From the NCBI RefSeq assembly GCF_900096755.1, contig NZ_LT615227.1, positions 894,457 to 958,456 on the forward strand: a DNA stretch of 64,000 nucleotides, given 5' to 3'. The stretch's first letter is position 1. Each line of letters opens with the position of its first letter. Position numbers and translations under genes: made by a program. This document shows, one piece after another, positions 19,184 to 63,724 of this stretch. The stretch is from Polynucleobacter necessarius (GTDB taxonomy: Bacteria > Pseudomonadota > Gammaproteobacteria > Burkholderiales > Burkholderiaceae). The notes beneath the pieces were generated by a model. That model did not search any database and was not told where the DNA came from. It worked only from the letters and a program-made list of their open reading frames with translations.

Positions 19184-19588
19184 CGCAAGGCCAACCCGTT
19201 TGACGCCATTCTCTTTGAGTTTGGACATGACATCCATCGCGGTTTCATACTTAATGGATTTATCGGCAGCAATCACCATCGGTTGATCGACTGATTTTTC
19301 TGCTTGCGTTCTTGCAAAGGCGCCGAGTTCAAATTTATTGAGTGTTTGTACGGGATCACCATCTTTGCGAACAATGACATTCTCGTTGGCATCGATTGTT
19401 AAAAAGATAGGGGGTAATGATTGGACCTTGGCGCCGCCAACGGTAGGTAAGTTCACGACGCCTGGATTGACCATGGGTGCAGTGACCATGAAGATCACGA
19501 GCAAAACCAACATGACGTCGATGTAAGGAACGACGTTGATGTCAGCCATTGCCCGACGTTTATTTTTTCGCAATGAAGATCCGGCCAT
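19169..19588 (-). CDS. tolR: Tol-Pal system protein TolR
   Basis: ExbD-family stator subunit of the proton-driven TolQRA motor. The single helix [16 protein letters not shown] carries the conserved proton-path Asp at about residue 24 ([11 protein letters not shown]). The periplasmic domain shows [10 protein letters not shown] and [21 protein letters not shown]. The product is 139 residues. The stop codon lies in a 10-bp tandem repeat. It follows tolQ by 11 bases. Confidence 0.95.
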
Positions 19589-20256: not shown

Positions 20257-20284
20257 GGTGGATTTTGTATGATGTAGGTTGATT

Positions 20285-20310
20285 TTACTAAGTTAATGAA
20301 AACTTAGTAA
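20285..20310. promoter_or_regulatory. Perfect 10-bp inverted repeat in the tolQ-glyA divergent region
   Basis: TTACTAAGTT (20285-20294) and AACTTAGTAA (20301-20310) are exact complements with a 6-base loop, ending 24 bases before the glyA ATG. It could be an operator for a dimeric regulator or a leader hairpin. No T-run follows, so it is not a normal terminator. Confidence 0.45.
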
Positions 20311-20334
20311 TCCAACTTCATTAGGATTATCACC

Positions 20335-21579
20335 ATGTTTGACCGTCAGAACACTTTAGCCAAAACCGACCCGCAATTGTGGGAAGCCATTCAGAACGAG
20401 AATAAGCGTCAGGAAGACCATATTGAGCTGATTGCTTCCGAGAACTACACCTCACCAGCGGTGATGGCTGCTCAGGGCTCCCAGTTGACGAATAAGTACG
20501 CTGAAGGATATCCAGGTAAGCGTTATTACGGTGGTTGTGAATTCGTGGACGTAGCTGAGCAATTGGCTATCGATCGTGTAAAAGCTTTGTTTGGTGCTGA
20601 AGCTGCTAACGTGCAACCTCATTGTGGTGCGTCAGCTAACCAAGCAGTATTCCTCGCATTCTTAAAACCTGGTGATATGTTCATGGGTATGAGTCTTGCT
20701 GAGGGCGGACACTTGACTCACGGTATGGCACTCAATATGAGCGGTAAGTGGTTCAATCCGATTGCTTACGGATTAGACAAAAGTGAAGAAATTGATTACG
20801 AGCAAATGGAGCGTTTGGCTCGTGAGCACAAACCTAAATTAATTATTGCTGGTGCATCTGCTTACTCTAAGAAAATTGATTTTGAGCGCATCGGTAAGTT
20901 GGCTAAAGAAGTCGGCGCGATTTTCATGGTCGACATGGCTCACTATGCAGGCTTGGTTGCTGCTGGTGTTTATCCAAACCCAGTACCGCATGCTGACATC
21001 GTTACTTCGACTACACACAAGAGCTTGCGCGGCCCACGTGGCGGGATCATCTTGATGAAAGCGGAGCATGAGAAGGCAATTAACTCTGCAGTGTTCCCAG
21101 GCTTACAGGGCGGTCCTTTGATGCACGTCATTGCTGCTAAAGCTGTCGCATTTAAAGAGGCTGCAGAGCCAGGCTTTAAGGATTATCAAAAACAAGTAGT
21201 TGCTAATGCAAAAGCATTGGCTGAAACATTAATTGCACGTGGCCTACGCATTGTGTCTGGTGGTACAGATTCACATGTGATGTTGGTGGATTTGCGCGCC
21301 AAGAAAATGACTGGTAAAGAAGCTGAGCGTGTATTGGGCGAAGCACACATTACTTGCAACAAAAACGGTATTCCTAATGACCCAGAAAAACCAATGGTCA
21401 CCAGTGGTATTCGTTTGGGTTCGCCAGCAATGACTACTCGTGGATTTAAAGAAGCTGAAGCAAGACAAGTAGGTAACTTTATTGCTGATGTTTTGGATAA
21501 TCCAAATGATGCAGAGAACATTGTCAAGGTGCGCGCTCAAGTTGCTGAGCTCACTAAACGCTTCCCTGTTTACGGTTAA
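20335..21579 (+). CDS. glyA: Serine hydroxymethyltransferase
   Basis: PLP enzyme that interconverts serine and glycine with tetrahydrofolate, the main one-carbon source. The 414-residue protein has [10 protein letters not shown], the GKRYYGGCE motif, [10 protein letters not shown] and the PLP lysine in [13 protein letters not shown] (Lys229), plus [16 protein letters not shown] near the C-terminus. nrdR follows 25 bases later, a common pair in betaproteobacteria. Intact, although folE in the same window is destroyed, so reduced folate must come from another source or gene. Confidence 0.97.
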
Positions 21580-49294: not shown

Positions 49295-50485
49295 ATGAAA
49301 TCAATTTTGCCTCTTATCGGTAGGGAAAAAGAATTATTTATTGACGATGTTGGTAAGTGTGAGGCCGACCTTCAAAAGATTATTTCAAGTTCAAGCTTTC
49401 TCGTGTTGGGTGGTGCTGGAACAATTGGACAGGCCGTGACCAAGGAGATATTTAAAAGAAATCCATTAAAGTTGCATGTCGTTGATGTTAGCGAGAACAA
49501 TATGGTTGAGCTGGTAAGGGATCTTAGGAGTTCGCACGGATATATTGACGGTGATTTTCAAACTTTTGCACTTGACATTGGCTCGGTTGAGTATGATTCC
49601 TTTATATCTGCAGATGGCAAATATGAATATGTTCTCAATCTTTCTGCGCTAAAACATGTCCGTAGCGAGAAGGATCCTTATACACTTATGCGTATGATTT
49701 CAGTTAATGTCCTCAATACAGAAAAAACACTTCTACAATCAATTGCTAAAGGGGCAAAGAAATATTTTTGCGTATCAACCGATAAAGCCACCAATCCAGT
49801 AAACATGATGGGCGCCTCAAAGCGCATCATGGAGATGTTTTTAATGCGACGCAGTCTTGAGATTGATGTATCTACAGCAAGATTTGCCAATGTTGCATTT
49901 TCTGATGGTTCATTGCTACATGGGTTTAATCAGCGAATTCAAAAGAATCAGCCTGTTGTTGCCCCTAAGGATGTCAAAAGATACTTCGTTACGCCTCAAG
50001 AGTCTGGCGAGTTATGCTTGATGTCGTGTATCTATGGAGAGAATCGTGATATTTTTTACCCCAAATTAAGCGAGGAACTACATCTGATAACCTTTGCTGA
50101 AATTGCTGCTAAATATCTTCGACAGATTGGATATGAGCCATACCCGTGTGACTCTGAGGATCAGGCGCGGGAATTGACTTTATCGCTTCCTAAAATTGGA
50201 AAATGGCCATGTCTTTTTTCTGATAGCGATACAACGGGTGAAAAAGATTTTGAGGAATTTTTTACTGAAAATGAAATTTTAGGTTTGGATTCTTATGAAC
50301 ATATTGGGGTGATAAAGAATGCGCCAGTTTTCAATCAAAAAATATTAGAACGCTTCCTTTCAAAAATTAGCGAATTAAAGACTTCTAAAAAATGGGGGAA
50401 GGAAGATCTCGTAGCTTTATTTCGTGAATTAATCCCCGAATTTAATCACAAAGAGGTTGGTAAATATCTTGATGGAAAAATGTAA
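49295..50485 (+). CDS. legB: Nucleotide-sugar 4,6-dehydratase, LegB-like (CapD/FlaA1 family)
   Basis: Extended SDR of 396 residues. Rossmann motif FLVLGGAGTIGQAVTKEIF near residue 35; VSTDKATNPVNMMGASKR contains the TDK and MxxxK catalytic set of FlaA1/PglF-type dehydratases; FYPKLSEELHLITFAEIA lies near the C-terminus. In the legionaminate pathway LegB converts NDP-GlcNAc to the 4-keto-6-deoxy sugar. Whether the donor is GDP or UDP linked cannot be read directly; the ptmE-like gene downstream favours GDP. Overlaps legC. Confidence 0.8.
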   Translation: MKSILPLIGREKELFIDDVGKCEADLQKIISSSSFLVLGGAGTIGQAVTKEIFKRNPLKLHVVDVSENNMVELVRDLRSSHGYIDGDFQTFALDIGSVEYDSFISADGKYEYVLNLSALKHVRSEKDPYTLMRMISVNVLNTEKTLLQSIAKGAKKYFCVSTDKATNPVNMMGASKRIMEMFLMRRSLEIDVSTARFANVAFSDGSLLHGFNQRIQKNQPVVAPKDVKRYFVTPQESGELCLMSCIYGENRDIFYPKLSEELHLITFAEIAAKYLRQIGYEPYPCDSEDQARELTLSLPKIGKWPCLFSDSDTTGEKDFEEFFTENEILGLDSYEHIGVIKNAPVFNQKILERFLSKISELKTSKKWGKEDLVALFRELIPEFNHKEVGKYLDGKM

Positions 50486-51644
50486 GAATGAGCACTCCCA
50501 ATCCAATCAAGATATCATCGAATTTATTCGAGGCTTATATAAAACCGAAGGGTTTATACCCTTACATGAACCGAGATTAGCAGGAAATGAAAAAAAATAT
50601 CTTTTAGAGTGCATAGACTCTACTTTTGTTTCTAGTGTCGGAAAGTTTGTTGACCAATTTGAGTCGATGATATTTGATTTTACAGGGGCTCGGCATGCTA
50701 TAGCTACCGTTAATGGTACGGCCGCATTGCATGTGGCGCTTAAATTAGTTGGCGTTGATGCTGGAGATGAGGTAATTACACAGCCTCTTTCTTTTATTGC
50801 CACTTGTAATGCAATTAGTTACTGCAATGCGAAGCCGATTTTTGTGGATGTAGATGTTGATTCTATGGGTATGAGCCCCAAGAGTTTGCGGAATTTCTTA
50901 AGTGCAAATACCCGTCAAAATCTTGGTGTATGTGTCAACATTGCAACCGGTAAAAAAATTGCCGCTGTCGTCCCTATGCATACATTTGGCTTGCCATGCA
51001 GAATTGAAGAAATTGAAGAAATTTGCAAAGAATTTAATATCCCTTTAGTAGAGGATGCTGCCGAAAGTTTGGGGAGCTATGTGAATGGCAGGCATACGGG
51101 TACTTTTGGGCGGATTGGTGCCCTAAGCTTTAACGGCAATAAAACAATTACCACTGGCGGTGGCGGTATGATTATTACCAATGATCCATCTTTGGCGAGG
51201 CGCGCAAAACATATTACAACTACCGCTAAGCTACCCCATCCATATGAATTCATTCATGATGAAGTGGGTTATAACTACAGATTGCCCAATATTAATGCGG
51301 CCCTTGGATGTGCTCAGATGGAATCTCTACTCTCCATCTTGAGGGGTAAACGAGAGTTAGCCTCAGAGTACGAAAATTATTTTCTAGAGAAAAATATAAA
51401 TTTTGCAGAAGAGATTGATGGCAGTCACTCAAATTATTGGCTAAACGCTATTATTCTGGAAGGTCGAATGCAAAGAGACTCTTTTTTAAAGGATCTTAAT
51501 GATGCAGGCGTGATGTGCAGGCCTATTTGGCGTCTTATGAATAATCTAAAAATGTTTAGTAATTGCCAAAAGGCGGATTTATCAAATGCGGAGTGGCTTG
51601 AGGACCGCGTTGTCAATATCCCCAGTAGCTCAAGAATTCCATGA
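50457..51644 (+). CDS. legC: Nucleotide-sugar aminotransferase, LegC-like (DegT/DnrJ/EryC1)
   Basis: PLP aminotransferase that installs the 4-amino group. Motifs: ATVNGTAALHVALKLVGV, DEVITQPLSFIATCNAI, VEDAAESLGS and the PLP lysine in LSFNGNKTITTGGGGM (about residue 224 from the ATG at 50472). The start could be TTG 50457 or ATG 50472; the latter overlaps the legB stop by 14 bases. The C-terminal ILEGRMQRDSFLKDLNDAGV with RPIWRLMN is family-typical. 390-395 residues. Confidence 0.88.
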   Translation: MVNILMEKCKNEHSQSNQDIIEFIRGLYKTEGFIPLHEPRLAGNEKKYLLECIDSTFVSSVGKFVDQFESMIFDFTGARHAIATVNGTAALHVALKLVGVDAGDEVITQPLSFIATCNAISYCNAKPIFVDVDVDSMGMSPKSLRNFLSANTRQNLGVCVNIATGKKIAAVVPMHTFGLPCRIEEIEEICKEFNIPLVEDAAESLGSYVNGRHTGTFGRIGALSFNGNKTITTGGGGMIITNDPSLARRAKHITTTAKLPHPYEFIHDEVGYNYRLPNINAALGCAQMESLLSILRGKRELASEYENYFLEKNINFAEEIDGSHSNYWLNAIILEGRMQRDSFLKDLNDAGVMCRPIWRLMNNLKMFSNCQKADLSNAEWLEDRVVNIPSSSRIP

Positions 51645-52234
51645 AGCCAAAAATTATCCTTGTAGGCGGCGGTGGGCACTGTACATCATGTATTGATGTG
51701 ATTGAGCAAGAGAATAAATTCCAAATAGCTGGCGTGGTTGATACACAAAAATATGGCGAACACTTGTTGGGGTATCCAGTTTTGGGGGACGATAAGGATC
51801 TTGCTGGTTTGCGAAAATCATATGAGTATGCACTTGTGACTGTAGGGCAGATTCAGACATCTGCAATTAGAATTAAGCTATATCAACAATTATCTCTGCT
51901 GGGCTTTAGTTTGCCCACCATTATTTCTCCAAGAGCTTATGTTTCTAAGCATGCAGTCATTCTCGATGGATCAATTATTATGCATGACGCATTGATTAAC
52001 GCTCACACGAGTGTTGGAAGCAATTGCATTATTAACACCAAAGCATTAATTGAGCACGACTCAAAAATTGGCAGTCATTGCCATATATCAACTGGAGCTA
52101 TTGTTAATGGTGGTGTAGTGGTTGGCAATGGGGTATTTATTGGCAGCAATGCTGTAGTAAAGCATTCCGTACAGATTAGCGATAATTTTTTTATAAGAGC
52201 CGCTGATTTATTTTCCGGAGATGAAAATGAGTAG
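51641..52234 (+). CDS. legH: Sugar O/N-acetyltransferase, LegH/NeuD/PglD family
   Basis: Transfers acetyl to the new 4-amino group. An N-terminal Rossmann-like PglD domain (MKPKIILVGGGGHCTSCIDV) is followed by a left-handed beta-helix with hexapeptide repeats (VILDGSIIMHDALINAHTSVG onward in short units). The catalytic-type His is in ALIEHDSKIGSHCHISTGAI. 197 residues. Overlaps both neighbours by a few bases, indicating one tightly coupled operon. Confidence 0.87.
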   Translation: MKPKIILVGGGGHCTSCIDVIEQENKFQIAGVVDTQKYGEHLLGYPVLGDDKDLAGLRKSYEYALVTVGQIQTSAIRIKLYQQLSLLGFSLPTIISPRAYVSKHAVILDGSIIMHDALINAHTSVGSNCIINTKALIEHDSKIGSHCHISTGAIVNGGVVVGNGVFIGSNAVVKHSVQISDNFFIRAADLFSGDENE

Positions 52235-53231
52235 AGTTTTTATAATTGCTGAGGCTGGAGTTAATCACAACGGGTCTTTAGAAATTGCAAAAGCATTGGT
52301 AGATGCTGCAGCCCACGCTGGAGCTGATGCAGTTAAGTTTCAAACTTTTAAGGCATCTAATTTAGTCAGCAAATCTGCTCAAAAAGCTGATTATCAAAAG
52401 AAAACAACAGGGGCAGTTGAGACTCAGCATGCCATGCTTGAAAGGCTTGAGCTCAATGAGCTTGCACATCAATCGATTATTGAGCATTGCAGAAATAAAA
52501 AAATTATGTTTCTGTCAACTCCCTTTGATGCAGAAAGTATTGATATGCTCAAGAGCTTGGGAATGCCTATATATAAGATACCCAGCGGAGAAATTACAAA
52601 CCTCCCTTATTTAAGGCATGTTGGTCGATTAGGAAAAGAGATTATTCTCTCTACGGGTATGTCTAGCCTTGATGAGATTGGCAATGCATTGGATGTTTTA
52701 GAGCGTGAAGGTGCCCCTAGATCAAGCATTGCAGTTCTTCATGCTACAACGGAATATCCCTGCCCAATTGAGGAGGTGAACCTCAATGCAATGCTCACAA
52801 TTCAGAAGGCATTTGGTGTTAGGGTGGGATATTCTGACCATACGCCTGGTATTGAGGTTCCAATAGCTGCGGTTGCATTGGGTGCTCGTGTAATAGAGAA
52901 GCACTTTACGCTGGATAAATCTATGGATGGGCCCGATCATAAGGCAAGCCTGGAGCCTGATGAGTTAAATGAAATGGTAAAGGCAATACGAAATATTGAA
53001 CAGGCATTGGGAGACGGTATTAAGCGCCCAATGACTAGTGAAATTAAGAATAAATTAGTTGTTCGCAAATCTTTGGTTGCCAGTCGTGAAATTAAAGCGG
53101 GAGAGTTTTTTAGTGCTGAAAATATAGGAGCAAAAAGACCTGGTACAGGGATTTCTCCAATGCGATGGGATGAGGTAATTGGGAAACGGGCTTGTAGAGA
53201 TTTTCTTTTGGATGAGCTAATCGAATTATGA
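52221..53231 (+). CDS. legI: N,N'-diacetyllegionaminate synthase-like (NeuB family)
   Basis: Condenses the 6-deoxy-diacetamido-hexose with phosphoenolpyruvate to the nine-carbon nonulosonate. The N-terminal TIM barrel begins FIIAEAGVNHNGSLEIA, with DAVKFQTFKASNLVS, FLSTPFDAESIDML, IPSGEITNLPYL and VGYSDHTPGIEV; metal and PEP sites lie in these. The C-terminal SAF/antifreeze-like domain starts near residue 285 (KLVVRKSLVASREIKAGE). Starts at ATG 52221 or 52227. Substrate by gene context; sialate synthase is the alternative. Confidence 0.9.
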   Translation: MKMSRVFIIAEAGVNHNGSLEIAKALVDAAAHAGADAVKFQTFKASNLVSKSAQKADYQKKTTGAVETQHAMLERLELNELAHQSIIEHCRNKKIMFLSTPFDAESIDMLKSLGMPIYKIPSGEITNLPYLRHVGRLGKEIILSTGMSSLDEIGNALDVLEREGAPRSSIAVLHATTEYPCPIEEVNLNAMLTIQKAFGVRVGYSDHTPGIEVPIAAVALGARVIEKHFTLDKSMDGPDHKASLEPDELNEMVKAIRNIEQALGDGIKRPMTSEIKNKLVVRKSLVASREIKAGEFFSAENIGAKRPGTGISPMRWDEVIGKRACRDFLLDELIEL

Positions 53232-54388
53232 GAAAAATTTGCGTCATTACTGGCACGCGTGCTGAATACGGATTGTTACGTTGGATCATGCAAGGCATTA
53301 AAGACGACCCTGAACTAAGATTGCAGATTATTGCTACAGGTATGCATTTATCCCCTGAATTTGGGTTAACCTACAAATCAATTGAGGAGGATGGATTTCA
53401 TATTGACCGCAAAGTAGAAATGCTAACTAGCTCAGATACGCCCGTTGGAATCACCAAGTCTATGGGCTTAGGGATGGTTGGATTTGCGGATGCCTTAAAT
53501 GAGCTGGACCCTGATTTGATTGTTGTTCTTGGTGATCGATTTGAAATATTTTCAGCAGTATCTGCAGCTCTTTTGGCGAGAATACCGGTAGCCCATATAC
53601 ATGGCGGTGAAAGCACAGAAGGGGTGATTGATGAATCAATACGTCATTCAATAACAAAAATGTCGCATTTGCATTTTGTATCTGCTGAAGAATACCGTCG
53701 GCGCGTAATACAGCTAGGGGAGCGGCCTGAAAGAACTCACTTGGTTGGGGCCCCGGGAATTGATGGTATCAAAAGATTAAAACTTCTCGATAGGGCGCAA
53801 CTAGAAGAGTCGTTGGGTTTTAAGTTGGGATCGAAAAGCTTATTGATAACTTTTCATCCAGTTACTTTAGAGAAAGCTACGGCTGGGGATCAATTCGAGG
53901 AGTTGCTTGCATCTCTTGCGCTATTGAAAGATACCCAATTAATTTTCACGATGCCTAATGCTGATACTGACGGGCGTGAATTGATAAAGTTGGTAGAGAA
54001 TTTTGTTTCCAGACACTCAAATGCAAAGTCGTATAACTCGCTAGGACAACTTCGCTATCTATCATGCCTAGCGCAGGTTGATGGTGTAGTCGGCAACTCT
54101 TCTAGCGGCCTGCTGGAGGCTCCTAGCTTCCGGAAGGGCACCGTTAATATTGGAGATCGCCAACGAGGAAGATTACACTCTGAAAGTGTGATTAATTGCG
54201 AGCCAGAGAGAGAAAGTATCTCTGCTGCCTTAAGACGTCTATATTCTGACCAGTTCCAGTCAAACCTGAAGCGCGTTAAAAATATTTATGGTGAAGGCGG
54301 TGCGAGTGACGCGATTGTTTCTATTGTTAAAACTGCTTCATTGGATGATATTGTAAAAAAGAATTTTTTTGACATAAAAAATATATAG
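53228..54388 (+). CDS. legG: Hydrolysing nucleotide-sugar 2-epimerase, LegG/NeuC family
   Basis: Removes the nucleotide and inverts C2 to give the manno-configured substrate for LegI. 386 residues: KICVITGTRAEYGLLRW, the PDLIVVLGDRFE motif, HIHGGESTEGVIDESIRHS, LITFHPVTLEKA and the C-terminal GVVGNSSSGLLEAPSF with NIGDRQRGR. These are the NeuC/LegG hallmarks. Overlaps legI by 4 bases. The following 130 bases have no gene and open a new ribosome site for the next one. Confidence 0.9.
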   Translation: MRKICVITGTRAEYGLLRWIMQGIKDDPELRLQIIATGMHLSPEFGLTYKSIEEDGFHIDRKVEMLTSSDTPVGITKSMGLGMVGFADALNELDPDLIVVLGDRFEIFSAVSAALLARIPVAHIHGGESTEGVIDESIRHSITKMSHLHFVSAEEYRRRVIQLGERPERTHLVGAPGIDGIKRLKLLDRAQLEESLGFKLGSKSLLITFHPVTLEKATAGDQFEELLASLALLKDTQLIFTMPNADTDGRELIKLVENFVSRHSNAKSYNSLGQLRYLSCLAQVDGVVGNSSSGLLEAPSFRKGTVNIGDRQRGRLHSESVINCEPERESISAALRRLYSDQFQSNLKRVKNIYGEGGASDAIVSIVKTASLDDIVKKNFFDIKNI

Positions 54389-54521
54389 GTATGGCTGCAA
54401 CGATGGTGTCCTATATTTCGATGTTACACAGGACCGCTTGTTCTGTATCTATGTTGTGGAAAAAATATTTAGTGATGAGGCTTGAGTTAGATTTCAGGCT
54501 GAATTCAAAAGGAATCTAGTT

Positions 54522-55580
54522 ATGGAAATACCTAAAGAAATATGGCGGCAGGCGATTTTGCCCATTAATGCCACAATAGGTGACGCAATTAAAAATTTAG
54601 ATCAGGTTGCGATCAAAATAGTTTTAGTTGTTGATGAGTTAGGCGTTTTAGCTGGCACCATTTCGGATGGTGATGTGCGCCGTGGTTTGCTTGATGGTTT
54701 GGATATGAGTAGTCCTGTTACCAGCATTATTCATCGAAATGCAGTAGTGGTTCCACCTGAGCTTGGTCGGGAATTGGTGATGCAGTTAATGACGGCTAAC
54801 AAGATTCAGCAGATTCCTGTGGTGGATGATCAGCATCGCATCATTGGCTTACATCTATGGAGTGAAATTACTGCTCCCCCTAACCGCCCAAATTTAATGG
54901 TGATTATGGCCGGCGGTAAGGGTACGAGATTGCGTCCTCATACAGAAAATTGTCCAAAACCATTATTGCCTGTAGCTGGCAAACCAATGTTGGAGCACAT
55001 TATTGAGCGCTCTAAAGCGGAAGGTTTTAATCATTTTGTCCTTTCTATTCACTATCTTGGTCATATGATTGAGGAGTATTTTGGGAGCGGAGATCGCTTA
55101 GGTGTACGAATTGATTATTTGCGCGAAGAATCACCCTTGGGCACTGCCGGAGCCTTGGGATTGCTTCGCCCCTCATCAAATGATCCTTTTGTGGTGACTA
55201 ATGGCGATGTTATTACCGACATTCGATATGGGGAGTTGCTCGATTTTCATATTCGGCATGGTGCTGCTGGAACTATGGCTGTACGTGTACACGAATGGCA
55301 TCATCCATTCGGGGTTGTGCAAACCCAAGGCGTTGAAATTATTGGTTTTGAAGAAAAACCAATAACCCGAAGCCATATTAATGCCGGTGTTTATGCATTA
55401 GATCCAGCAGCATTAAATCTTTTGTCAAATGAACACTGCGATATGCCAACCTTATTTGAGCGCTTGCAGTCTAAAGATTTGCGTACCGTAGCATATCCAA
55501 TGCATGAGCCGTGGCTTGATGTGGGTAGGCCATTGGATCTTCATTTGGCAAATAGCGAGCATACCGAAGGTGTTGATTGA
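54522..55580 (+). CDS. CBS-domain nucleotidyltransferase, PtmE-like
   Basis: 352 residues. Residues 1-118 hold a CBS pair (VLVVDELGVLAGTISDGDVRRGLL; QIPVVDDQHRIIGLHLW). From residue 125 a sugar-nucleotidyltransferase domain: MAGGKGTRLRPHTENCPKP, LPVAGKPMLEHII, YLREESPLGTAG, VVTNGDVITDI and VGRPLDLHLAN. In Campylobacter the same architecture (PtmE) makes GDP-glucosamine for the GDP-linked legionaminate route, so this gene suggests that route here. UDP or dTDP specificity cannot be excluded. Confidence 0.82.
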   Translation: MEIPKEIWRQAILPINATIGDAIKNLDQVAIKIVLVVDELGVLAGTISDGDVRRGLLDGLDMSSPVTSIIHRNAVVVPPELGRELVMQLMTANKIQQIPVVDDQHRIIGLHLWSEITAPPNRPNLMVIMAGGKGTRLRPHTENCPKPLLPVAGKPMLEHIIERSKAEGFNHFVLSIHYLGHMIEEYFGSGDRLGVRIDYLREESPLGTAGALGLLRPSSNDPFVVTNGDVITDIRYGELLDFHIRHGAAGTMAVRVHEWHHPFGVVQTQGVEIIGFEEKPITRSHINAGVYALDPAALNLLSNEHCDMPTLFERLQSKDLRTVAYPMHEPWLDVGRPLDLHLANSEHTEGVD

Positions 55581-56296
55581 TGATAAATGGAAAAACCGTT
55601 ATTGCCATAATTCCAGCGCGCGCTGGCTCAAAAGGATTATTGGGAAAAAATATCAAGCCGTTGTGCGGGAAACCACTCATCGCATGGAGTGTAGAGGCGG
55701 GCTTAGCTAGTCGGTATATTGATGAGGTGATGGTGACTACTGACGGTGAAGATATCTCTCATATTGCAAAAAAATTTGGTGCTTCCATTCCTTTTCTTAG
55801 GCCTCCGGAGCTTGCAGGCGATACCGCAACAACATTTGATGCTGTAAAACATGTGATTGATTTTTATGCTCAAAAAATGCATAAGAAGTTTGACTATATT
55901 GTCTTACTAGAGCCAACATCTCCGCTACGAGAAAAAGACGATCTAGATCGAATGCTTGAGAAATTAGTATCAAACGATGGTGAATATGATGCAATAGTAA
56001 GTCTTGGAGAGGTGCATGAACATCCTTCAATCATGAAGAAAATTTCAGGCAATGAAATTGTGCAATACAACAAAGACTTAACAACTACAACGCGAAGGCA
56101 AGATAATGATGCTGCTTATTTTCCATATGGAGTTGCATACATTATCAAGAGAGACACACTACTTGATGAGAAAGTTTTTTATCCAAAAAGAACAACTTAT
56201 CACCTGATTAAGCGATATCAATGCTATGAAATTGACGACATTTATGATTTTCTTGCCATTGAAAATATTATGAAATTTGAATGGGGGCAAAAATGA
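55577..56296 (+). CDS. legF: CMP-legionaminate/nonulosonate cytidylyltransferase
   Basis: Activates the nine-carbon acid with CTP. 239 residues: IAIIPARAGSKGLLGKNIKPL, MVTTDGEDISHIAKKFGA, the LLEPTSPLREKDDLDRML segment, and YQCYEIDDIYDFLAIE near the end. This is the NeuA/LegF/PtmB pattern. It overlaps the ptmE-like gene by 4 bases and the following oxidoreductase by 4. Precise sugar inferred from the cluster; sialate is the alternative. Confidence 0.87.
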   Translation: MMINGKTVIAIIPARAGSKGLLGKNIKPLCGKPLIAWSVEAGLASRYIDEVMVTTDGEDISHIAKKFGASIPFLRPPELAGDTATTFDAVKHVIDFYAQKMHKKFDYIVLLEPTSPLREKDDLDRMLEKLVSNDGEYDAIVSLGEVHEHPSIMKKISGNEIVQYNKDLTTTTRRQDNDAAYFPYGVAYIIKRDTLLDEKVFYPKRTTYHLIKRYQCYEIDDIYDFLAIENIMKFEWGQK

Positions 56297-57288
56297 AATT
56301 CCTAGTCATTGGCTTGGGTTCAATGGGTAAGAGACGAGTTCGAAATCTTCAAGCATTAGGTGTGGTAAATATTGCGGGATTTGATGTGCGTGCTGATAGA
56401 CGTCAAGAAGCACAAGATAAATATGGAATTCAAGTTTTTGAAAGTCTAGACCTGGCAATGATGGTCTATGAACCAGAAGTTTTTATAATCTCGACCTCGC
56501 CCGATCTTCATATGCAATACGCTTTCTTTGCACTTGAGAAGGGTATTAGTTGCTTTATTGAGGCATCAGTTGTTGAGGCTGACAAGATTGACCTGCTTTC
56601 TAAAAAAATTGAAGATAAGAAAATTGTCATGGCGCCCTCATGTACGATGCGCTATTTTTCTGGTCCCAAAAAGATCAAGGAGCTAATTCGTTCTAATGCA
56701 ATTGGAAAAATTTTGAATGTCAATTATCAGACTGGTCAATATTTGCCTGATTGGCATCCATGGGAAAAGATTGAGGAATTTTACGTATCAAAGCGTGAGA
56801 CTGGAGGTGCGCGAGAAATTGTACCGTTTGAACTCACTTGGCTGAATGATCTTTTTGGAGTGCCCCAAGCCTTAGCTTGTGTAAAAACTAAGCTTACTGA
56901 AATAAACGCAGATATTGATGATATTTATCACTGCCTAATTCGTTATGATGGCAAGGTGCTTGCCAATATTACAGTTGAAGTGGTGTCAAGGCCAAAGGCT
57001 ACACGAGATATGCGAATCTTAGGTAGCGAGGGTGAGATTATATATAGCGCCGATTCAAATAGCGTGAGATATATAAATACTTCCATGGATGATTGGATAA
57101 GTTTTGACCTTGGCGCGGGAAGGGTTGAAGACCACTATATCAATCCAGAAGAGCCTTATATTGCAGAAATCAGAGACTTTATATCGGCTGTAGCGGCAAA
57201 AGATCAAACTTTATTTCCGAATTCCTTGAAGGATGATTACAAAATTCTACAAACTTTAGAAGCCCTTGAAAAAATGACAGGAGCCTAG
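56293..57288 (+). CDS. Gfo/Idh/MocA family oxidoreductase (first of three)
   Basis: NAD(P)-dependent sugar dehydrogenase-like protein of about 331 residues from ATG 56293. N-terminal Rossmann motif FLVIGLGSMGKRRVRNLQ, FIISTSPDLHMQYAFFALEK, then a C-terminal alpha/beta domain with GGAREIVPFELTWLNDLFG. The usual EKP catalytic segment is replaced by IEASVVEAD, so the lysine is not where expected. Similar genes accompany legionaminate loci and one in Campylobacter is ptmF-like. Overlaps legF by 4 bases. Confidence 0.75.
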   Translation: MKFLVIGLGSMGKRRVRNLQALGVVNIAGFDVRADRRQEAQDKYGIQVFESLDLAMMVYEPEVFIISTSPDLHMQYAFFALEKGISCFIEASVVEADKIDLLSKKIEDKKIVMAPSCTMRYFSGPKKIKELIRSNAIGKILNVNYQTGQYLPDWHPWEKIEEFYVSKRETGGAREIVPFELTWLNDLFGVPQALACVKTKLTEINADIDDIYHCLIRYDGKVLANITVEVVSRPKATRDMRILGSEGEIIYSADSNSVRYINTSMDDWISFDLGAGRVEDHYINPEEPYIAEIRDFISAVAAKDQTLFPNSLKDDYKILQTLEALEKMTGA

Positions 57289-57290
57289 CT

Positions 57291-58649
57291 TTGAACTACC
57301 AAAAAAGATTACTAAATGCCATACCCGGTGGCGCTCATACTTATTCACGAGGTTTTGATCAGTATCCAGCGAATGCACCACAAATTTTGACTCATGGTAA
57401 AGGCTCATACATATTTGATTCAGATGCTAATAAGTATCTTGATTATGGAATGGCCTTACGTGCTGTGAATATTGGTTATGCAGAGGATAAAATTGATAAT
57501 GCTGCAATTGCTCAAATTAGGTATGGAAATAATTTAACCCGGCCGTCTATGGTTGAGCTAGAGGCTGCTGAACTTCTAGTTGAATTAATTGATTCGGTAG
57601 ATATGGTTAAGTTCACTAAAAATGGCTCAACTGCGGTTTCTGCAGCGGTTAAATTAGCGAGAGCTTATACAGGCAGAGATTTGGTAGCAAGATGTTCGGA
57701 CCAACCTTTTTTCTCATTTGATGATTGGTTTATTGGATCAACACCAATTGTTAAGGGTATTCCACAAGAGACCATCGAAAAAACAAAGATGTTTGGCTAT
57801 AACGATATTTTGTCTTTGGAGAGACTGATTTCTGAATTTCCCGGGCAAATTGCTTGTGTTGTACTGGAGGCTGCTGCAACCGAATGTCCTAGCGTAGAAG
57901 ATTTCAAATCTGGCTGCTGTAACCAAGCGGTATGCACTAGACCCTACCAAAATTCGTCTGAGAATTTTTTACAACAGGTTGAGAAGCTTTGTAAGAAACA
58001 TGGAATTGTGTTCATTCTTGATGAGATGATTACTGGCTTTCGCTGGGACATGAAGGGTGCACAGCATCTTTATGGCGTCAACCCTGATATTTCTACATTT
58101 GGCAAAGCGATGGCCAATGGATTTTCCGTAGCATGTGTAGCTGGCAAAAGAGAAATTATGGAATTAGGGTCTACAGAGTTTCTTGGTCGGGAGAGAGTTT
58201 TTTTACTATCCACGACTCATGGAGCTGAAATGTGTGGTTTGGGGGCTTTTGTAGAAACAATGAAATTTATGCAAAAGAATAATGTCATATCTCATTTATG
58301 GAACTATGGAAATCAATTGATAAATCTTATTAATGATTTAGCCACCACGCATGGAATCGAAGAGAATTTCAAGGCTGGTGGCGTCGCTTGTTCTCCCTAT
58401 TATTCCACGCTTGATCAATCTGGAAATAATTCTCTAGAACTACGGACATTATTTTCTCAGGAAATGATTCGCCAAGGCGTTCTTATGCCATGGATAGCTT
58501 TGTCATATCGTCATGGCAAAGAAGAGCTTGCCGTTACTGAGCGTGCAATTGACCAAGCATTTAAAGTGTATCGTCGAGCATTGGACGAAGGTGTAGAGAA
58601 ATATCTTGTTGGAGAGGTAATTAAGCCAGTGTTTAGAAAATTTAATTGA
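57291..58649 (+). CDS. Class III (glutamate-1-semialdehyde-type) PLP aminotransferase
   Basis: 452 residues from TTG 57291. Segments AIPGGAHTYSRGFDQYP, DYGMALRAVNIGYAED, VKFTKNGSTAVSAAVKLAR, IVFILDEMITGFRWDMKG and the PLP lysine in DISTFGKAMANGFSVA place it with glutamate-1-semialdehyde aminomutase-like proteins. An unusual cysteine-rich insert (SGCCNQAVCTRPYQ, around 208-222) is not part of the family core. In this setting it probably aminates a keto-sugar rather than making aminolevulinate. Reaction unknown. Confidence 0.75.
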   Translation: MNYQKRLLNAIPGGAHTYSRGFDQYPANAPQILTHGKGSYIFDSDANKYLDYGMALRAVNIGYAEDKIDNAAIAQIRYGNNLTRPSMVELEAAELLVELIDSVDMVKFTKNGSTAVSAAVKLARAYTGRDLVARCSDQPFFSFDDWFIGSTPIVKGIPQETIEKTKMFGYNDILSLERLISEFPGQIACVVLEAAATECPSVEDFKSGCCNQAVCTRPYQNSSENFLQQVEKLCKKHGIVFILDEMITGFRWDMKGAQHLYGVNPDISTFGKAMANGFSVACVAGKREIMELGSTEFLGRERVFLLSTTHGAEMCGLGAFVETMKFMQKNNVISHLWNYGNQLINLINDLATTHGIEENFKAGGVACSPYYSTLDQSGNNSLELRTLFSQEMIRQGVLMPWIALSYRHGKEELAVTERAIDQAFKVYRRALDEGVEKYLVGEVIKPVFRKFN

Positions 58650-58682
58650 AGTGCACAAAAATATCAGTAAAAAAAGTAGCGG

Positions 58683-59450
58683 ATGCTTAAGCAAAAAGTC
58701 ATAGTGGTAACGGGCGGCGCAGGACTTTTAGGGCGTCAATTCTGCATGTCAATCGCTGCAAATGGCGGTATCGCTGTTATTGCTGATCGGGATGCTGAAG
58801 CGGCCGAGAGTGCGACAAATGACGTTTTAAATAAGTATCCCGATTGTGCAGTTGCTGAATTTTTGGATATTACGGATAAGAATTCAGTACTTCAGTTGAT
58901 CGATAGATTAAAAGCAAGGTTTGGTCGAATAGATGCTGTCGTGAACAATGCATATCCGCGTAACAGTCAATATGGCCGTAAGCTTGAGGACGTGACTTAT
59001 GAGGATTTTTGTGAAAATGTTGGCCTTCATCTTGGCGGGTATTTCTTAGTTGCGCAGCAATTTGGGTTGCTATTTAAAGAGCAAGGAGGCGGAAATATTA
59101 TAAATATGGCCTCAATTTACGGAGTAATGGCGCCTCGATTTGAAATATATAAGGATACTACTATGACTATGCCCATAGAGTATGCAGCAATAAAATCCGG
59201 TGTTATTCAGCTATCTAAATATTTTGCAAAATACTTTTTAGCCAGCGGAGTCCGAGTGAATACTTTGAGCCCTGGTGGTATTTTGGATAAGCAGCCAGCT
59301 AGTTTTTTAAAGGCCTATAACGCAAACTGTGGGCCAAAAGGAATGTTGAGTTCTGAAGATGTGATCGGACCTTTAGTTTTCTTGCTCTCAGACTCCTCTA
59401 AGCATATTACCGGACAGAATTTTGTTGTTGATGATGGTTTTTCTCTTTGA
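58683..59450 (+). CDS. Short-chain dehydrogenase, PtmA-like
   Basis: Classical SDR of 255 residues: VIVVTGGAGLLGRQFC (NAD site), a FGRIDAVVNNAYPRN segment, INMASIYGVMAPRFEIYKD, the catalytic EYAAIKSGVIQLSKY (YxxxK) and VDDGFSL at the end. The insert before the catalytic Tyr (APRFEIYKDTTMTMPIE) is like PtmA of Campylobacter flagellin glycosylation loci. Ketosugar oxidation or reduction is likely. Preceded by 33 bases. Confidence 0.75.
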   Translation: MLKQKVIVVTGGAGLLGRQFCMSIAANGGIAVIADRDAEAAESATNDVLNKYPDCAVAEFLDITDKNSVLQLIDRLKARFGRIDAVVNNAYPRNSQYGRKLEDVTYEDFCENVGLHLGGYFLVAQQFGLLFKEQGGGNIINMASIYGVMAPRFEIYKDTTMTMPIEYAAIKSGVIQLSKYFAKYFLASGVRVNTLSPGGILDKQPASFLKAYNANCGPKGMLSSEDVIGPLVFLLSDSSKHITGQNFVVDDGFSL

Positions 59451-59511
59451 TCAACAGATATAACTGCAGACTGCAATCTTCTTAAAATCATCTTTTATAA
59501 AGAAAAATTTA

Positions 59512-60489
59512 ATGTTTAGACTAGCCATTATCGGGGCCGGTCAATTAGGTAGTCGCCATTTACAAGGACTATCTCAGCTTCCTGTGGATTGTGAAATTGA
59601 TGTTATTGACCCATCTTCAGCCTCGCTAGAAATTGCTCGCCAGCGATTCGAGGAGATGCCAGGTAATAAGGCGGTTCATTGCGTTCGATATCACTCCGAA
59701 GTCACTTCTCTACCAAAGCAGTTGGACTATGTTGTAATTTCAACCTCAGCAGATGTTCGTCTTATTTGTCTCGAGAGATTGCTGCAGAACTCGAAAGTTA
59801 AACTTTTACTGCTAGAAAAAGTATTATTTCAGCGTATTGAGGATTATGCAAAGGCAGATGAGTTAATTAGGCACCACGGGGTCAAGGCTTGGGTTAATTG
59901 TCCAAGAGGCGCTTACCCAATTTATTCAGAAATATCTGAATTTTTTCATGGGGAAAAGTTGATTTGTGCTCAAGCCATCGGGGGAGATTGGGGGCTTGGT
60001 TGCAACGGAATCCACTTTATAGACCTCTTTCGAGCAATTAGTGGCCAGCAATTACAAAGTCTTAATACAGAATGTTTAGATAAAAAAGTAATTTCAAGTA
60101 AGCGCAAAGGATTTATCGAGTTCACCGGAGCTTTGCGTGGCATTTACTCAGGCGGCATGAATGTGGAGATGACCTCCCTGCAGGGTTCATTAGCTCGTTT
60201 GTTAATAACATTGCGATCAGAAAATCGTACATGTATCGTGGATGAGACTGCGGGAGTCGGTTTCTTCTTGGACACGATAAATGCAGCGCAATGGGAGAGA
60301 AAAGATTTTAGGGCGCCATATTTGAGTGAGTTAATTACAAGCCTGGTTGGAGAAATGCTTCAAACGGAAACAAGTCCACTGCCTACTTTTAAAGAGTCTG
60401 CAAAATACCATTTAACTTTTATTAAGTCGATGGCAAATTTTGCTTCAAAATTTCATGATGGCAATGAAAATATTTGCCTAATTACTTAA
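59512..60489 (+). CDS. Gfo/Idh/MocA family oxidoreductase (second of three)
   Basis: 325 residues with RLAIIGAGQLGSRHLQGL, the cofactor/sugar segment LDYVVISTSADVRLIC and VKLLLLEKVLFQRIEDY (EK as in the EKP motif, Pro replaced by Val). The C-terminal part GGDWGLGCNGIHFIDLFR has the His used by this family for catalysis. Weak similarity to the first and third copies. Substrate unknown. Confidence 0.7.
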   Translation: MFRLAIIGAGQLGSRHLQGLSQLPVDCEIDVIDPSSASLEIARQRFEEMPGNKAVHCVRYHSEVTSLPKQLDYVVISTSADVRLICLERLLQNSKVKLLLLEKVLFQRIEDYAKADELIRHHGVKAWVNCPRGAYPIYSEISEFFHGEKLICAQAIGGDWGLGCNGIHFIDLFRAISGQQLQSLNTECLDKKVISSKRKGFIEFTGALRGIYSGGMNVEMTSLQGSLARLLITLRSENRTCIVDETAGVGFFLDTINAAQWERKDFRAPYLSELITSLVGEMLQTETSPLPTFKESAKYHLTFIKSMANFASKFHDGNENICLIT

Positions 60490-60510
60490 TGAATTTTTAT
60501 TGGAGAGATT

Positions 60511-61455
60511 TTGGATAATGATTTGTGGCTTATAGGATCTGGCGGCATGGCGTTGGAATATGCAAAAGTATTGCAGGCCCATCATATTGCCTTTACTGTC
60601 ATTGGGCGTGGGCATGAGTCGGCTATTGCATTTACAAAAATGTCTGGGATGGATGTTGTGGAAGGCGGTCTGACTTCTTACCTCCATACAAAGCCAAAAT
60701 TGCCTTCAAAAGCAATCATTGCCGTGGGTGTAGAGGCGTTGTCAGAGACAATGAAAAGCCTGATTGAGTATGGGGTTCCTAATATCCTAGTGGAAAAACC
60801 TGGGGCATTAACAAAAGAGGAAATAGTCAGTGCCTTACTTTTGGCTAAGAAAAACTCAGTACGCGTATTTGTAGCCTACAATCGCCGCTTTTACGCCTCT
60901 ACATTGCGCGCATTGGAGTTGATTGCTGAGGATGGGGGTGTGAAATCATTTAACTTCGAGTTTACGGAATGGGGTCATGAAATTCAAGGTTTGAAAAAAG
61001 CACCCGGTGTCAAAGATGCTTGGTTTTTAGCAAACTCAACTCATGTGGCTGATTTAGCTTTTTATTTGGGGGGTATTCCTACTGAGATGACTACATTCAC
61101 TGCGGGTAGTCTTGACTGGCATCCTGCCGCATCGGTATTTTCTGGTGCTGGAAAAACAAATACGGGGGCAATATTTTCTTATCAAGCTAACTGGGGTGCG
61201 CCTGGCAGATGGGGGGTAGAGACTCTAACTTCAAACTATCGTCTGATATTTAGACCAATGGAGTCTTTAAAAATCATGAAAAAGGGTTCAATAAATATTG
61301 AGGAAGTTCCTCTAAATGATGAAATGGATAAACAATTTAAGCCTGGCTTAAACGAAATGGTTAAGAGGTTTCTGAGGGGTCAGGATGATGGATTATGCGC
61401 TCTTGAAAGCCAATCTCAGTTATGGGATATTTATTGCAAGATGGCAAATTATTAG
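60511..61455 (+). CDS. Gfo/Idh/MocA family oxidoreductase (third of three)
   Basis: 314 residues from TTG 60511. LWLIGSGGMALEYAKVLQ, a full EKP motif in VPNILVEKPGALTKEE, VFVAYNRRFYASTLRAL and NSTHVADLAFYLGGIP with the catalytic-type His. This copy keeps the canonical EKP lysine, unlike the first. The 3' end overlaps the next frame; that gene probably starts at 61467, 12 bases after this stop. Confidence 0.72.
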   Translation: MDNDLWLIGSGGMALEYAKVLQAHHIAFTVIGRGHESAIAFTKMSGMDVVEGGLTSYLHTKPKLPSKAIIAVGVEALSETMKSLIEYGVPNILVEKPGALTKEEIVSALLLAKKNSVRVFVAYNRRFYASTLRALELIAEDGGVKSFNFEFTEWGHEIQGLKKAPGVKDAWFLANSTHVADLAFYLGGIPTEMTTFTAGSLDWHPAASVFSGAGKTNTGAIFSYQANWGAPGRWGVETLTSNYRLIFRPMESLKIMKKGSINIEEVPLNDEMDKQFKPGLNEMVKRFLRGQDDGLCALESQSQLWDIYCKMANY

Positions 61456-61466
61456 CAATTGATCCA

Positions 61467-62510
61467 ATGATGAGTAATCAAATGGCGACTAGAGTTCTTT
61501 TAATCGTGCAAAGCCCAATTGGAATTGCATCAATCCTACAACTGTACGTCAATAACATCGATAACAATGCTGTATCAATAGCCTGTATTGGATCAAGAGG
61601 TGTTTATGAATACCTCCTTAAGTTAAACCTGAAGTGTGAGGTTATCTTCATACAGCCTGTCGCCTATTCCCAGAATAAGATGAAATATTTGAGTAGGTTA
61701 AGGGCTCAAAAAGTTGCAATAGATCAGTTATGCAAAGAATATGATTTGGTTTATTTCACTAGTATTTATCAAGATTTGTACACAATGTCTATTCTGACTG
61801 AATGCCAGAAAAAAAATATTAAGGTCTTTAGAATTAGCACGGGTTTGGATAATCTTCATCAATATGCAATTCCAATAAGTATTTTCGGAAAGATAGTAGA
61901 GGCTATTGTAGTAAGGTTAATTCGTTGGATTATTGGCGTTGAAATTAATTTCGTGATGTTAAGTGGAAGATATTTTTTTAGCTACAAAAATAGCGCATCG
62001 ATTCCAACTTTAGAAATCGAAGTTAAGCAAGAGATATACGAGCAATTTGGGGTTTCGGTTTCGGGAGGCTTGTCTAAGAACATACTGCTTTTTGAGTCCA
62101 GAGGCGAGGGTGCAGGATATTTTTCAAACTATCAAAATAATTTGACTGAGTTATTAAGTAAATTGAGATTATTAGGAACTGTATACATAAAACCGCATCC
62201 AACGCATGGTGTTTCAAGGTTTTTAAAGTGCGATGATCATCTAAAGGTTTTGGATAAATCTACTCCAGCGGTCATGATTAATCTAAAAGACTTTTCGATG
62301 ATTGTTGGAATCGAGAGTGCTGCACTTAAGGAGACACGACATTCAAATTTAGTTTCTGTTATTGACAGCTTTGAATTTGTAAATAATGATGTTAAAGAAA
62401 CCTTTAAAAAGTATTTAAAGGACGTGCAAGGTTCAGAAATTCAATTTAAGCCAATTGAACAGCTTAGACTAACTACGCATCCTTTACCGGTCGGACAAAT
62501 TTCAAAGTGA
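61467..62510 (+). CDS. Candidate nonulosonate (sialyl-type) transferase
   Basis: About 347 residues; ATG 61467 (or 61470) is preferred over a frame start inside the previous gene. Starts RVLLIVQSPIGIASILQL, has two GT-B-like halves, the segment LLFESRGEGAGYFSNYQNN, an IKPHPTH motif and GIESAALKETRHS. HP and a Ser-containing motif of this kind are shared by bacterial sialyltransferase families (GT52, GT80, GT38). With legF upstream it is the best candidate to attach legionaminate. Direct assignment is inference. Confidence 0.5.
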   Translation: MMSNQMATRVLLIVQSPIGIASILQLYVNNIDNNAVSIACIGSRGVYEYLLKLNLKCEVIFIQPVAYSQNKMKYLSRLRAQKVAIDQLCKEYDLVYFTSIYQDLYTMSILTECQKKNIKVFRISTGLDNLHQYAIPISIFGKIVEAIVVRLIRWIIGVEINFVMLSGRYFFSYKNSASIPTLEIEVKQEIYEQFGVSVSGGLSKNILLFESRGEGAGYFSNYQNNLTELLSKLRLLGTVYIKPHPTHGVSRFLKCDDHLKVLDKSTPAVMINLKDFSMIVGIESAALKETRHSNLVSVIDSFEFVNNDVKETFKKYLKDVQGSEIQFKPIEQLRLTTHPLPVGQISK

Positions 62511-63724
62511 AGCTTGCGGCAATCTATGGCATTTTTGGCGGCGCCAATGCCACACTTCTATTTCTAACAAATATTCTGCTTGTGAGGATGATTGACCCTT
62601 CAAGTTATGGAAAGATAAACTTTGCATTGTCATATTTGGCGATAATTATTCCGCTCATTTCATTTAATGCTCTTGGAATTGTAGGGATAAAAAGAGCGGT
62701 ATTGAATGAAAGTCAATTTCATGTCTTTAAAACTGCATATAGAAAATTTATATATATTGGAACTGCTGTAATCTTGATTGCATCGGTAGCTATTTCTGTT
62801 TATTACGACTCAGTTGGATATCTTACCTTTATTCTGCCAGCCTATATTTTTTGCATAGCAGTAACTGATTACAGTTCAGCTATTTTGATTCAAGATGGCA
62901 AGCCTATAGTTTTTGGATTTTCTCAAATGCTTGCTAGAGGCGTAGGAATGGCTTGTATTTATGTGCTCATTCGCTTGGGATGCGATAGCTTAATTTCTTA
63001 CTTCTTTGGCCTAACAGTTGGTGAGGCTATTTCAATAATTTATAGATCCTATAGAGGAAATTTACGTTTTTTTGAGAGGATTAATTGCACTATAATCGAG
63101 ATTAGAAAAGCCTCTAAAGAAATAATGCTCTATGGGTTAACTCTATTGCCATTATTATTTTTTGGTTGGTCTTTTAATGGATTAGATAGAATTGTAATAG
63201 GTAAAAATGAGGGCATGACATCTGTTGCTGTCTACTCTTTCGCATTGACTTTGGCTCAATCATTCAGCATTATTAATAGTGCAATTATGAACGTGAAGAT
63301 GCCTGAAATTTACAACAAGCTTGCTGAAAATTCTCCACATAGCATTAAGTATGGTCGATTTTTATTGCTTTTTTTATCGATAGCTGGATTATTAATGCCT
63401 TTAGCTTACTTGGTTATGAGTTTTGCTATTCCTAAGATTAATGTTGAATATGAAGGAAGTGTTGAAATCGCTATTATATTAATTATTTCAGTGATATTTA
63501 ATGGGGCATATAGGTTGGTAATAAGTATTACTGATTTTTATAAGAAAAACTTGCACAAAACTATACTTACAATTTCCGCCTCTTTATTTGCATTCATATT
63601 GATGATTTCCTTTGTGGATATGGGTGGCATTACTGCAGTTGCATTATCGGTGCTTGTGGGTAATATATTTTTATTCTGCGGAGCCCTGCTATTGGCAAAT
63701 TCCTTTACAGGGATTCGACAATGA
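62507..63724 (+). CDS. Polysaccharide flippase, Wzx-like (second)
   Basis: 405 residues, about twelve hydrophobic segments. AAIYGIFGGANATLLFLTNILLV and MIDPSSYGKINFALSYLAII match the MATE/Wzx family. Overlaps the transferase stop by 4 bases. AT-rich, with ATA and other rare-codon-like choices more frequent than in the first flippase (41303), consistent with separate origin. May export a nonulosonate-containing repeat unit. Confidence 0.8.
   Translation: MKLAAIYGIFGGANATLLFLTNILLVRMIDPSSYGKINFALSYLAIIIPLISFNALGIVGIKRAVLNESQFHVFKTAYRKFIYIGTAVILIASVAISVYYDSVGYLTFILPAYIFCIAVTDYSSAILIQDGKPIVFGFSQMLARGVGMACIYVLIRLGCDSLISYFFGLTVGEAISIIYRSYRGNLRFFERINCTIIEIRKASKEIMLYGLTLLPLLFFGWSFNGLDRIVIGKNEGMTSVAVYSFALTLAQSFSIINSAIMNVKMPEIYNKLAENSPHSIKYGRFLLLFLSIAGLLMPLAYLVMSFAIPKINVEYEGSVEIAIILIISVIFNGAYRLVISITDFYKKNLHKTILTISASLFAFILMISFVDMGGITAVALSVLVGNIFLFCGALLLANSFTGIRQ

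Follow-up and report, generated by a model that had tools for sequence, protein, structure and literature searches.

What do five consecutive genes at the end of a legionaminic acid (Leg) operon do, when three of them encode Gfo/Idh/MocA oxidoreductases, one a class III aminotransferase (AT) and one a short-chain dehydrogenase (SDR)? The question is posed by Polynucleobacter necessarius, with its genome assembled as a single 1.7 Mb contig, and by a stretch of 64,000 nucleotides of that contig, here called the window, in which the five genes follow a legF-like gene. A sequence-only reading of this DNA had treated them as one uncharacterised set with the oxidoreductase-plus-aminotransferase logic of amino-sugar synthesis. 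Nonulosonic acids decorate O-antigens, capsules and flagella, and in the available passages of the open-licence literature no gene assigned to an 8-amino nonulosonic acid was found; papers given below by PMC number are likewise cited from such passages. We find that the cassette is two modules rather than one unit, and our best single guess for its chemistry, held tentatively and somewhat short of an even chance, is that the SDR and AT would aminate legionaminic acid at C8. The five genes, named here GFO1, AT, SDR, GFO2 and GFO3, are as follows.

56293..57288, + strand: GFO1, Gfo/Idh/MocA protein of the EAS/REIVPFEL kind, module 1 (Pfam, motif alignment)
57291..58649, + strand: AT, class III aminotransferase of the PRK06209 family with a Cys-rich insert, module 1 (Pfam, NCBIfam)
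58683..59450, + strand: SDR, PtmA-like short-chain dehydrogenase with S144/Y167/K171 kept, module 1 (NCBIfam, alignment)
59512..60489, + strand: GFO2, Gfo/Idh/MocA dehydrogenase with EK and IH retained, module 2 (Pfam, motif alignment)
60511..61455, + strand: GFO3, Gfo/Idh/MocA dehydrogenase with EKP and TH retained and a TTG start, module 2 (Pfam, motif alignment)

All five genes are confirmed as real. The open reading frames (ORFs) and the Pfam and NCBIfam results agree with the families first named for them: Gfo/Idh/MocA in genes 1, 4 and 5, Aminotran_3 in gene 2 and adh_short_C2 in gene 3. The GFO1 ORF was predicted as 56281-57288; the start at 56293 gives 331 amino acids and falls in the ATGA at 56293-56296, where the GFO1 start overlaps the legF stop, so that the coupling to legF by overlap proposed earlier holds. 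AT starts with TTG, with AGGAG upstream.

AT and SDR are linked beside nonulosonic acid genes

A scan for AT with one genome per species gave 142 pattern hits and 124 relatives. The best 80 of the 124 were used, and 78 of these loci were usable, having AT on the plus strand in the ORF table; the other two were dropped. Neighbours were labelled by their best BLAST hit (E <= 1e-8) to the window proteins or to neighbour families, and loci other than the window carry numbers with the prefix L. A nonulosonic acid label (legI, legC, legG or ptmE) was present in 72 of the 78 AT loci, legI alone in 63, and a CMP-transferase lay at most six genes upstream of AT in 67. The SDR lay within three genes downstream of AT in 64 of the 78 loci; the loci hold 67 SDR-labelled ORFs altogether, 64 of them at +1 to +3 from AT, and this linkage is more than chance. 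Together the results support the proposed pairing of an oxidoreductase with a pyridoxal phosphate (PLP)-dependent aminotransferase beside leg genes.

The third partner of this pair varies. GFO1 was found within three genes of AT in 27 of the 78 loci and a serine-acetyltransferase-like gene near AT in 25, and the two were never found together (0/78; Fisher p 1.7e-6). An AT tree with 79 rows, one of them the host's HemL, requires 8 changes for each label, at least 7 of which are forced by well supported branches, and the exclusion is therefore not a single-lineage effect. It is expected if the two gene types treat a new amine in alternative ways. Additionally, a nitrilase-type gene (CN_hydrolase) lay within three genes downstream of AT in 14 of the 78 loci, its nearest model being the YafV-type PRK10438 (153.8 bits, below the cut-off of 249). 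Omega-amidase activity connects nitrilase-type proteins with glutamine-dependent aminotransferases, and such a neighbour is expected if AT uses glutamine. An N-acetyl sugar amidotransferase was near AT in 31 of the 78. AT and SDR, with GFO1 or the acetyltransferase-like gene as alternative partners, thus make up a small gene set that extends across several phyla.

This variation among methyltransferase, acetyltransferase and amidotransferase neighbours would also suit a different role, in which AT and SDR make a decoration for the glycan, either an amino-acyl substituent or a separate amino sugar, and leave the nonulosonic acid itself unchanged. Class III enzymes include beta-amino acid transaminases, and the annotated rhizobial AT relative described below lies in an apparent CDP-hexose cluster. 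We nevertheless think this role unlikely, as the CMP-transferase upstream of AT (67/78) and the nonulosonic acid genes (72/78) speak against it, and none of the five cassette genes matched an acyl-activating or ligase family in Pfam or NCBIfam.

Within the genus Polynucleobacter, AT was matched at E <= 1e-80 in 2 of 37 genomes, own included. The second of these (locus L102, 19.5 kb) reads ptmE-legF-GFO1-AT-SDR, with no GFO2 or GFO3 label. In the Flavobacteriaceae AT was matched in at least 2 of 349 genomes, in a scan that missed a known carrier (L061) and so has no bearing on absence. AT was found in one phage record, and IMG/VR gave one relative among 137 pattern hits. An IMG/VR contig filed as viral (L133) holds, at 4934-11228, an AT (40%) with CMP-transferase-like, GFO1-like and legI-like genes.

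GFO2 and GFO3 form a second module

GFO2 and GFO3 occur together in nine loci (window, L021, L047, L103, L118, L119, L120, L121 and L122), adjacent in seven, with one gene between them in L118 and apart in L122. AT is present in only three of the nine (window, L021 and L047). No AT is found in the 13 to 20 kb seen of the other six, of which L103, L118 and L121 reach a contig end, in L103 directly upstream of GFO2. Because GFO2-GFO3 occur without AT in view, and GFO1-AT-SDR without GFO2-GFO3, the cassette is two modules. The five genes therefore do not stand as the single set first described. When scattering of the genes is used as the check, AT-SDR and GFO2-GFO3 each stay linked and the five-gene unit splits between them.

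Counting own or seed genomes, GFO3 was matched in 2 of the 274 genomes of the class, in at least 3 of 395 in the phylum of the Odoribacter genome and in at least 4 of 398 in its own phylum; the two phylum counts are lower bounds, as is that from the 398 genomes drawn for GFO1 relatives, since at most five candidates were scored per genome. GFO3 has EKP in all nine loci and GFO2 has EK in all eight readable copies (EKV in the window), with the active-site His seen in four GFO2 rows and three GFO3 rows.

GFO2 and GFO3 may be an oxidation and re-reduction pair, most simply at C4 (4-epimerisation). There is close to an even chance, however, that they act on another sugar of the repeat unit and not at C4, which concerns module 2 only and is compatible with any reading of module 1. 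In favour of that view, solved structures showed only weak similarity to GFO2 (E 0.0017), and at 0.01 no match to GFO3 was found; on the other side, legI and legG labels accompany the pair in all nine loci, where other neighbours are varied.

AT is a PRK06209-family enzyme and SDR is PtmA-like

AT belongs to the PRK06209 family (NF004856), with 678.6 bits against a cut-off of 486 that was passed in none of 14 control genomes, and scores 120.3 bits for Aminotran_3 (PF00202). K272 is present in all 78 aligned rows and by homology would be the PLP lysine of a class III, fold-type I enzyme. In databases the gene set of AT, SDR and their alternative partners goes under the names 'glutamate-1-semialdehyde 2,1-aminomutase' and 'oxidoreductase', and of the 15 solved chains similar to AT at E <= 1e-30, 14 are named GSAM and one 'Aminotransferase class-III'.

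An identity of AT with the haem enzyme HemL was considered and rejected. AT scores 198.8 bits for TIGR00713 against a cut-off of 527.3, which a separate hemL of the host passes at 608 bits. Furthermore, the HemL loop YHGHADS..., a segment with a gating role, is present in the host's own HemL and absent from the five AT rows displayed (22 aligned), with PFFSFDDWFIG nearby.

The extra Cys-rich insert noticed in the window AT is real and common, as 36 of the 78 aligned rows have it with at least three Cys. These are 14 of 25 rows with the acetyltransferase-like gene, 9 of 27 with GFO1, 12 of 25 others and the window. The insert lies at approximately 57882-57960, with C-x3-C ... C-x2-C in several rows, and suggests a small metal site. 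It is present in the window AT and L006 and not in the near relatives L005, L007 and L008.

SDR passes the PRK09186 cut-off (341.9 bits vs 255) and lies under that of PtmA (NF050062; 267.3 vs 350). The SDR of Escherichia coli locus L085 behaves alike, with 198.5 bits for PtmA and 346.0 for PRK09186. The window SDR is 45% identical to the L085 protein and 53% to a partial ORF of E. coli locus L086, and an alignment of 66 SDRs, that of the window among them, conserves its catalytic S144, Y167 and K171 at 90% or more. Among phage records, where the phage protein EpaB was sought, 38 matched SDR, the best at 35.4%, and none was identified as EpaB.

GFO1 is altered at the presumed catalytic positions

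GFO1 was compared in 30 rows, namely the window and 29 GFO1-labelled ORFs near AT. In 28 of them EKP is replaced by EAS or EAG and HE by FE, which is 28 of 28 readable copies of AT loci; one of these (L046) sits four genes from AT. The remaining rows are L059, which is truncated, and a second, distant copy in L031 that is not beside AT and reads EKP and SHEL. The window GFO1 has EAS and PFEL in place of the EKP lysine and the active-site His, positions which we take to be the catalytic Lys and His from the known Gfo/Idh/MocA motif. In contrast, all 13 GFO1 relatives from stretches without AT in view kept EKP and HE. These are two from E. coli, ten ORFs from nine places in the 398 genomes of the phylum and one from L119; for most of them the stretch in view spans only 2.6 to 4 kb, and several are distantly related. 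In the draw from the 398 genomes, the window itself was the only EAS-type match among the candidates scored.

These results describe a Gfo subfamily that departs from the usual catalytic residues in every case seen beside AT. The sequence-only reading had observed that the first oxidoreductase lacks the EKP lysine (EAS) and the third keeps it (EKP), and its suggestion that their roles differ is supported. The motif GQYLPDW, defined from our alignments and not from published work, is common to GFO1 and the two E. coli Gfo proteins and suggests a related ligand. GFO1, a relative of the PtmF-type Gfo proteins, has probably given up the usual transfer of hydride at a carbinol.

E. coli clusters without the aminotransferase

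Leg-type matches were found in 23 of 5426 E. coli genomes and four clusters were inspected. L085 and L086 contain Gfo(EKP) and SDR besides Leg genes, with no class III aminotransferase beside them. L087 (with wzx/wzy named O161) and L088 contain Leg genes, a ptmE-like gene and a CMP-transferase, and no annotated Gfo, SDR or class III aminotransferase. A search for GFO1-AT-SDR DNA in the 5426 genomes found the SDR part only, in 15. The O161 antigen contains plain Leg. The O61 O-antigen of E. coli contains 8-epilegionaminic acid, and O108 does likewise according to a cited title (PMC3628348). Because glf or fnlA adjoins them, and from the known antigen structures, L085 and L086 are probably O61/O108-type, 8-epi-Leg clusters. 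On this reading, Gfo(EKP) and SDR would be a C8 epimerase pair, consistent with EpaA-EpaB for Pse and with the predicted action of the Ela and Aci modules, both described below. As a separate observation, L087 has a FemA/FemB-like annotated gene between legC and neuB (14252-15244), with no NCBIfam match at 1e-10.

A PtmA-like SDR beside a Gfo is thus the arrangement of probable 8-epi-Leg clusters, and in the window SDR and GFO1 might likewise 8-epimerise Leg, with AT acting elsewhere, for example on an acyl-group precursor. We regard this as quite unlikely, as Lys and His are missing from every readable GFO1 of AT loci (28/28) and GFO1 is near AT in just 27 of 78 loci, whereas SDR follows AT in 64.

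The same clusters bear on the earlier suggestion that the cassette could feed glucosamine to the PtmE-like enzyme. The placing of PtmA in a GDP-sugar step (PMC4481668) would favour a cassette that provides PtmE with glucosamine phosphate by way of a keto-sugar. Against this, glmS (791.5 bits) and glmM (572.6 bits), both over cut-off, lie elsewhere in the genome, and the ptmE-containing L087 and L088 are without Gfo, SDR and AT genes, although both clusters carry or adjoin insertion sequences. Moreover, by established chemistry fructose-6-P is already a ketose, and no oxidoreductase would be needed. We consider glucosamine supply very improbable; sugar tailoring is much better supported, and the other suggestion made at the time, a second modified sugar, fits better.

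Setting of the cassette

The genes on either side of the cassette are as follows.

49295..55580, + strand: dehydratase (legB-like), legC, legH, legI, legG and ptmE-like nucleotidyltransferase with CBS domain, the core GDP-route legionaminic acid genes (family profiles)
55577..56296, + strand: legF-like CMP-nonulosonate cytidylyltransferase (CTP_transf_3; PseF 150.6 bits, below the cut-off of 205.7)
61422..63724, + strand: protein that matched no family, inferred to be a glycosyltransferase, and Wzx-like flippase, a context of export and assembly (Polysacc_synt 23.8 bits against a gathering cut-off of 28.2, not reached; no NCBIfam hits)

The core leg genes score 552.3 bits for the LegC family, 517.5 for NeuB, 487.3 for NeuC and 175 for the NeuD family, each over cut-off. 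The legB-like dehydratase has FnlA (83.5 bits) and PseB (61.7 bits) as its best models, both below cut-off, and the ptmE-like gene was called from its NTP_transferase and CBS domains. The legC-like ORF (window 50457-51644) opens with TTG, and from there it shares 29 bases with the dehydratase gene (49295-50485). A Wzz-like protein, an initiating sugar transferase and a WecG-type transferase are encoded 5' of the leg operon. With these upstream and the Wzx-like flippase downstream, the region looks like a surface polysaccharide locus.

A proposed route through C8

Apart from the anomeric position, the only free hydroxyls of Leg5Ac7Ac are those at C4 and C8. Oxidation and amination at C8 would therefore be the best reading, with GFO2-GFO3 perhaps at C4. 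The tailoring of legionaminic acid by the cassette would follow CMP activation or immediately precede it. The PtmA-like SDR would oxidise the C8 hydroxyl to a methyl ketone, and AT would aminate this 8-ketone to give 8-amino-8-deoxy (5,7,8-triamino) legionaminic acid, a reaction that suits a GSAM-like enzyme. The PtmF-type Gfo of clusters without AT may re-reduce the ketone (8-epimerisation), and GFO1 may act on the 8-keto or 8-amino intermediate or keep it bound. In adding these steps to the genes, linkage, motifs and two modules observed above, we infer the substrate, position and direction of each enzyme.

Two of the expected kinds of product have been described. An 8-amino nonulosonic acid of the manno type occurs in the O-polysaccharide of Flexibacter maritimus, and Shewanella japonica and Legionella have 4-epi-Leg (PMC3210612). 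In the available passages of the Tenacibaculum (Flexibacter) maritimum genome paper (PMC5561996) neither 'O-antigen' nor 'nonulosonic' was found. A more far-reaching proposal would make GFO1-AT-SDR the so far unassigned 8-amino nonulosonic acid pathway, derived from an 8-epimerase pair in which GFO1, on the arrival of an aminotransferase, lost its catalytic Lys and His and turned non-reductase, and which with GFO2-GFO3 would yield an undescribed sugar changed at both C8 and C4; taken as a whole we judge this rather unlikely.

Several points weigh against C8 amination of Leg. Campylobacter Leg is D-glycero despite PtmA and PtmF. Our AT loci were drawn with the window AT as query and represent the habitat of its close relatives, not of all class III enzymes, and 14 of the 78 have no SDR within three downstream genes, of which 4 run into a contig end and 3 have an SDR at another place. 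Rhizobial AT relatives (46-47%) include an annotated one (L090, 46.5%) in an apparent CDP-hexose cluster, likely a CDP-hexose pathway drawing on the same aminotransferase family. On this Neorhizobium petrolearium plasmid, 11959-19482 holds the AT relative, an SDR family gene, a DUF4910 protein, rfbC, a methyltransferase, a glucose-1-phosphate cytidylyltransferase and a PIG-L gene. The E. coli clusters used for comparison are themselves imperfect: the L086 SDR is annotated as two overlapping coding sequences (19939-20702, strain ECZP248) and is probably split, the L087 wzy is frameshifted beside IS1, and L088 is flanked by insertion sequences. These strains may not make the antigens.

The literature adds further points on the same side. 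The 8-amino sugar of F. maritimus is manno (Pse-like) with the C8 configuration undetermined, and not Leg (PMC3210612), and the Plesiomonas paper that puts PtmA in a GDP-sugar step names the strain's sugar legionaminic acid (PMC4481668). Clusters of Legionella pneumophila serogroups 6/12, likened here by description only, hold a class III aminotransferase, in serogroup 6 also two dehydrogenases, and no 8-amine is reported there in the passages available (PMC3694923); the sugar of non-1 Legionella serogroups is, from a cited title, 4-epi-Leg, with no 8-amine. No simple 8-amino or 8-acetamido Pse accounts for the sugar of 376 Da in Aeromonas piscicola AH-3, a group II strain (PMC7874193). Should C8 amination nonetheless prove true, glycan types could be readable from genomes and a misleading aminotransferase name could be corrected.

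Comparison with known systems

The combination of an oxidoreductase and an aminotransferase acting on an ulosonic acid has a parallel in KdnB-KdnA of Shewanella (8-amino-Kdo), where a side-chain hydroxyl is oxidised and then transaminated. KdnB, however, is an iron-type alcohol dehydrogenase and the carbon a primary alcohol, and the likeness is by description only. The Kdo8N sugar is documented (PMC3210612). In the kanosamine system (NtdA/NtdB/NtdC), which works through 3-keto-glucose-6-P and to which the cassette was first likened, NtdA is another aminotransferase type. Among the flagellar glycosylation islands of Aeromonas, most group I subgroups have a class III aminotransferase beside pseF and a separate reductase; compared by description only, they differ in that the sugar is Pse and not Leg, and an alpha/keto reductase replaces the SDR (PMC7874193). 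The available passages give no function for these genes.

Action at C8 of a nonulosonic acid has been described for EpaA-EpaB, which turn Pse into 8-epi-Pse, as followed by nuclear magnetic resonance (PMC12053666). As in our module 1, an adh_short_C2 SDR (EpaB) is combined with a partner oxidoreductase. That partner (EpaA) is an aldo-keto reductase fused to a cytidylyltransferase, with no Gfo and no aminotransferase, and the systems are likened by description only. ElaABC and AciABCD(E) of Acinetobacter baumannii K loci also add extra genes, including oxidoreductases, to a full Leg set, and are predicted to make 8-epi-Leg or (8-epi)acinetaminic acid from CMP-Leg (PMC9676051, PMC5595891). This likeness too is by description only, and no aminotransferase is named for them in the passages available.

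The PtmF-PtmA pairs of Campylobacter, Plesiomonas and E. coli (elg/wei type) share with module 1 the same SDR family and a GQYLPDW Gfo beside ptmE and legF. The difference is that the PtmF-type Gfo keeps EKP and His where GFO1 has neither, and that L085 and L086 have no adjacent class III aminotransferase, the gene that in module 1 stands between GFO1 and the SDR.

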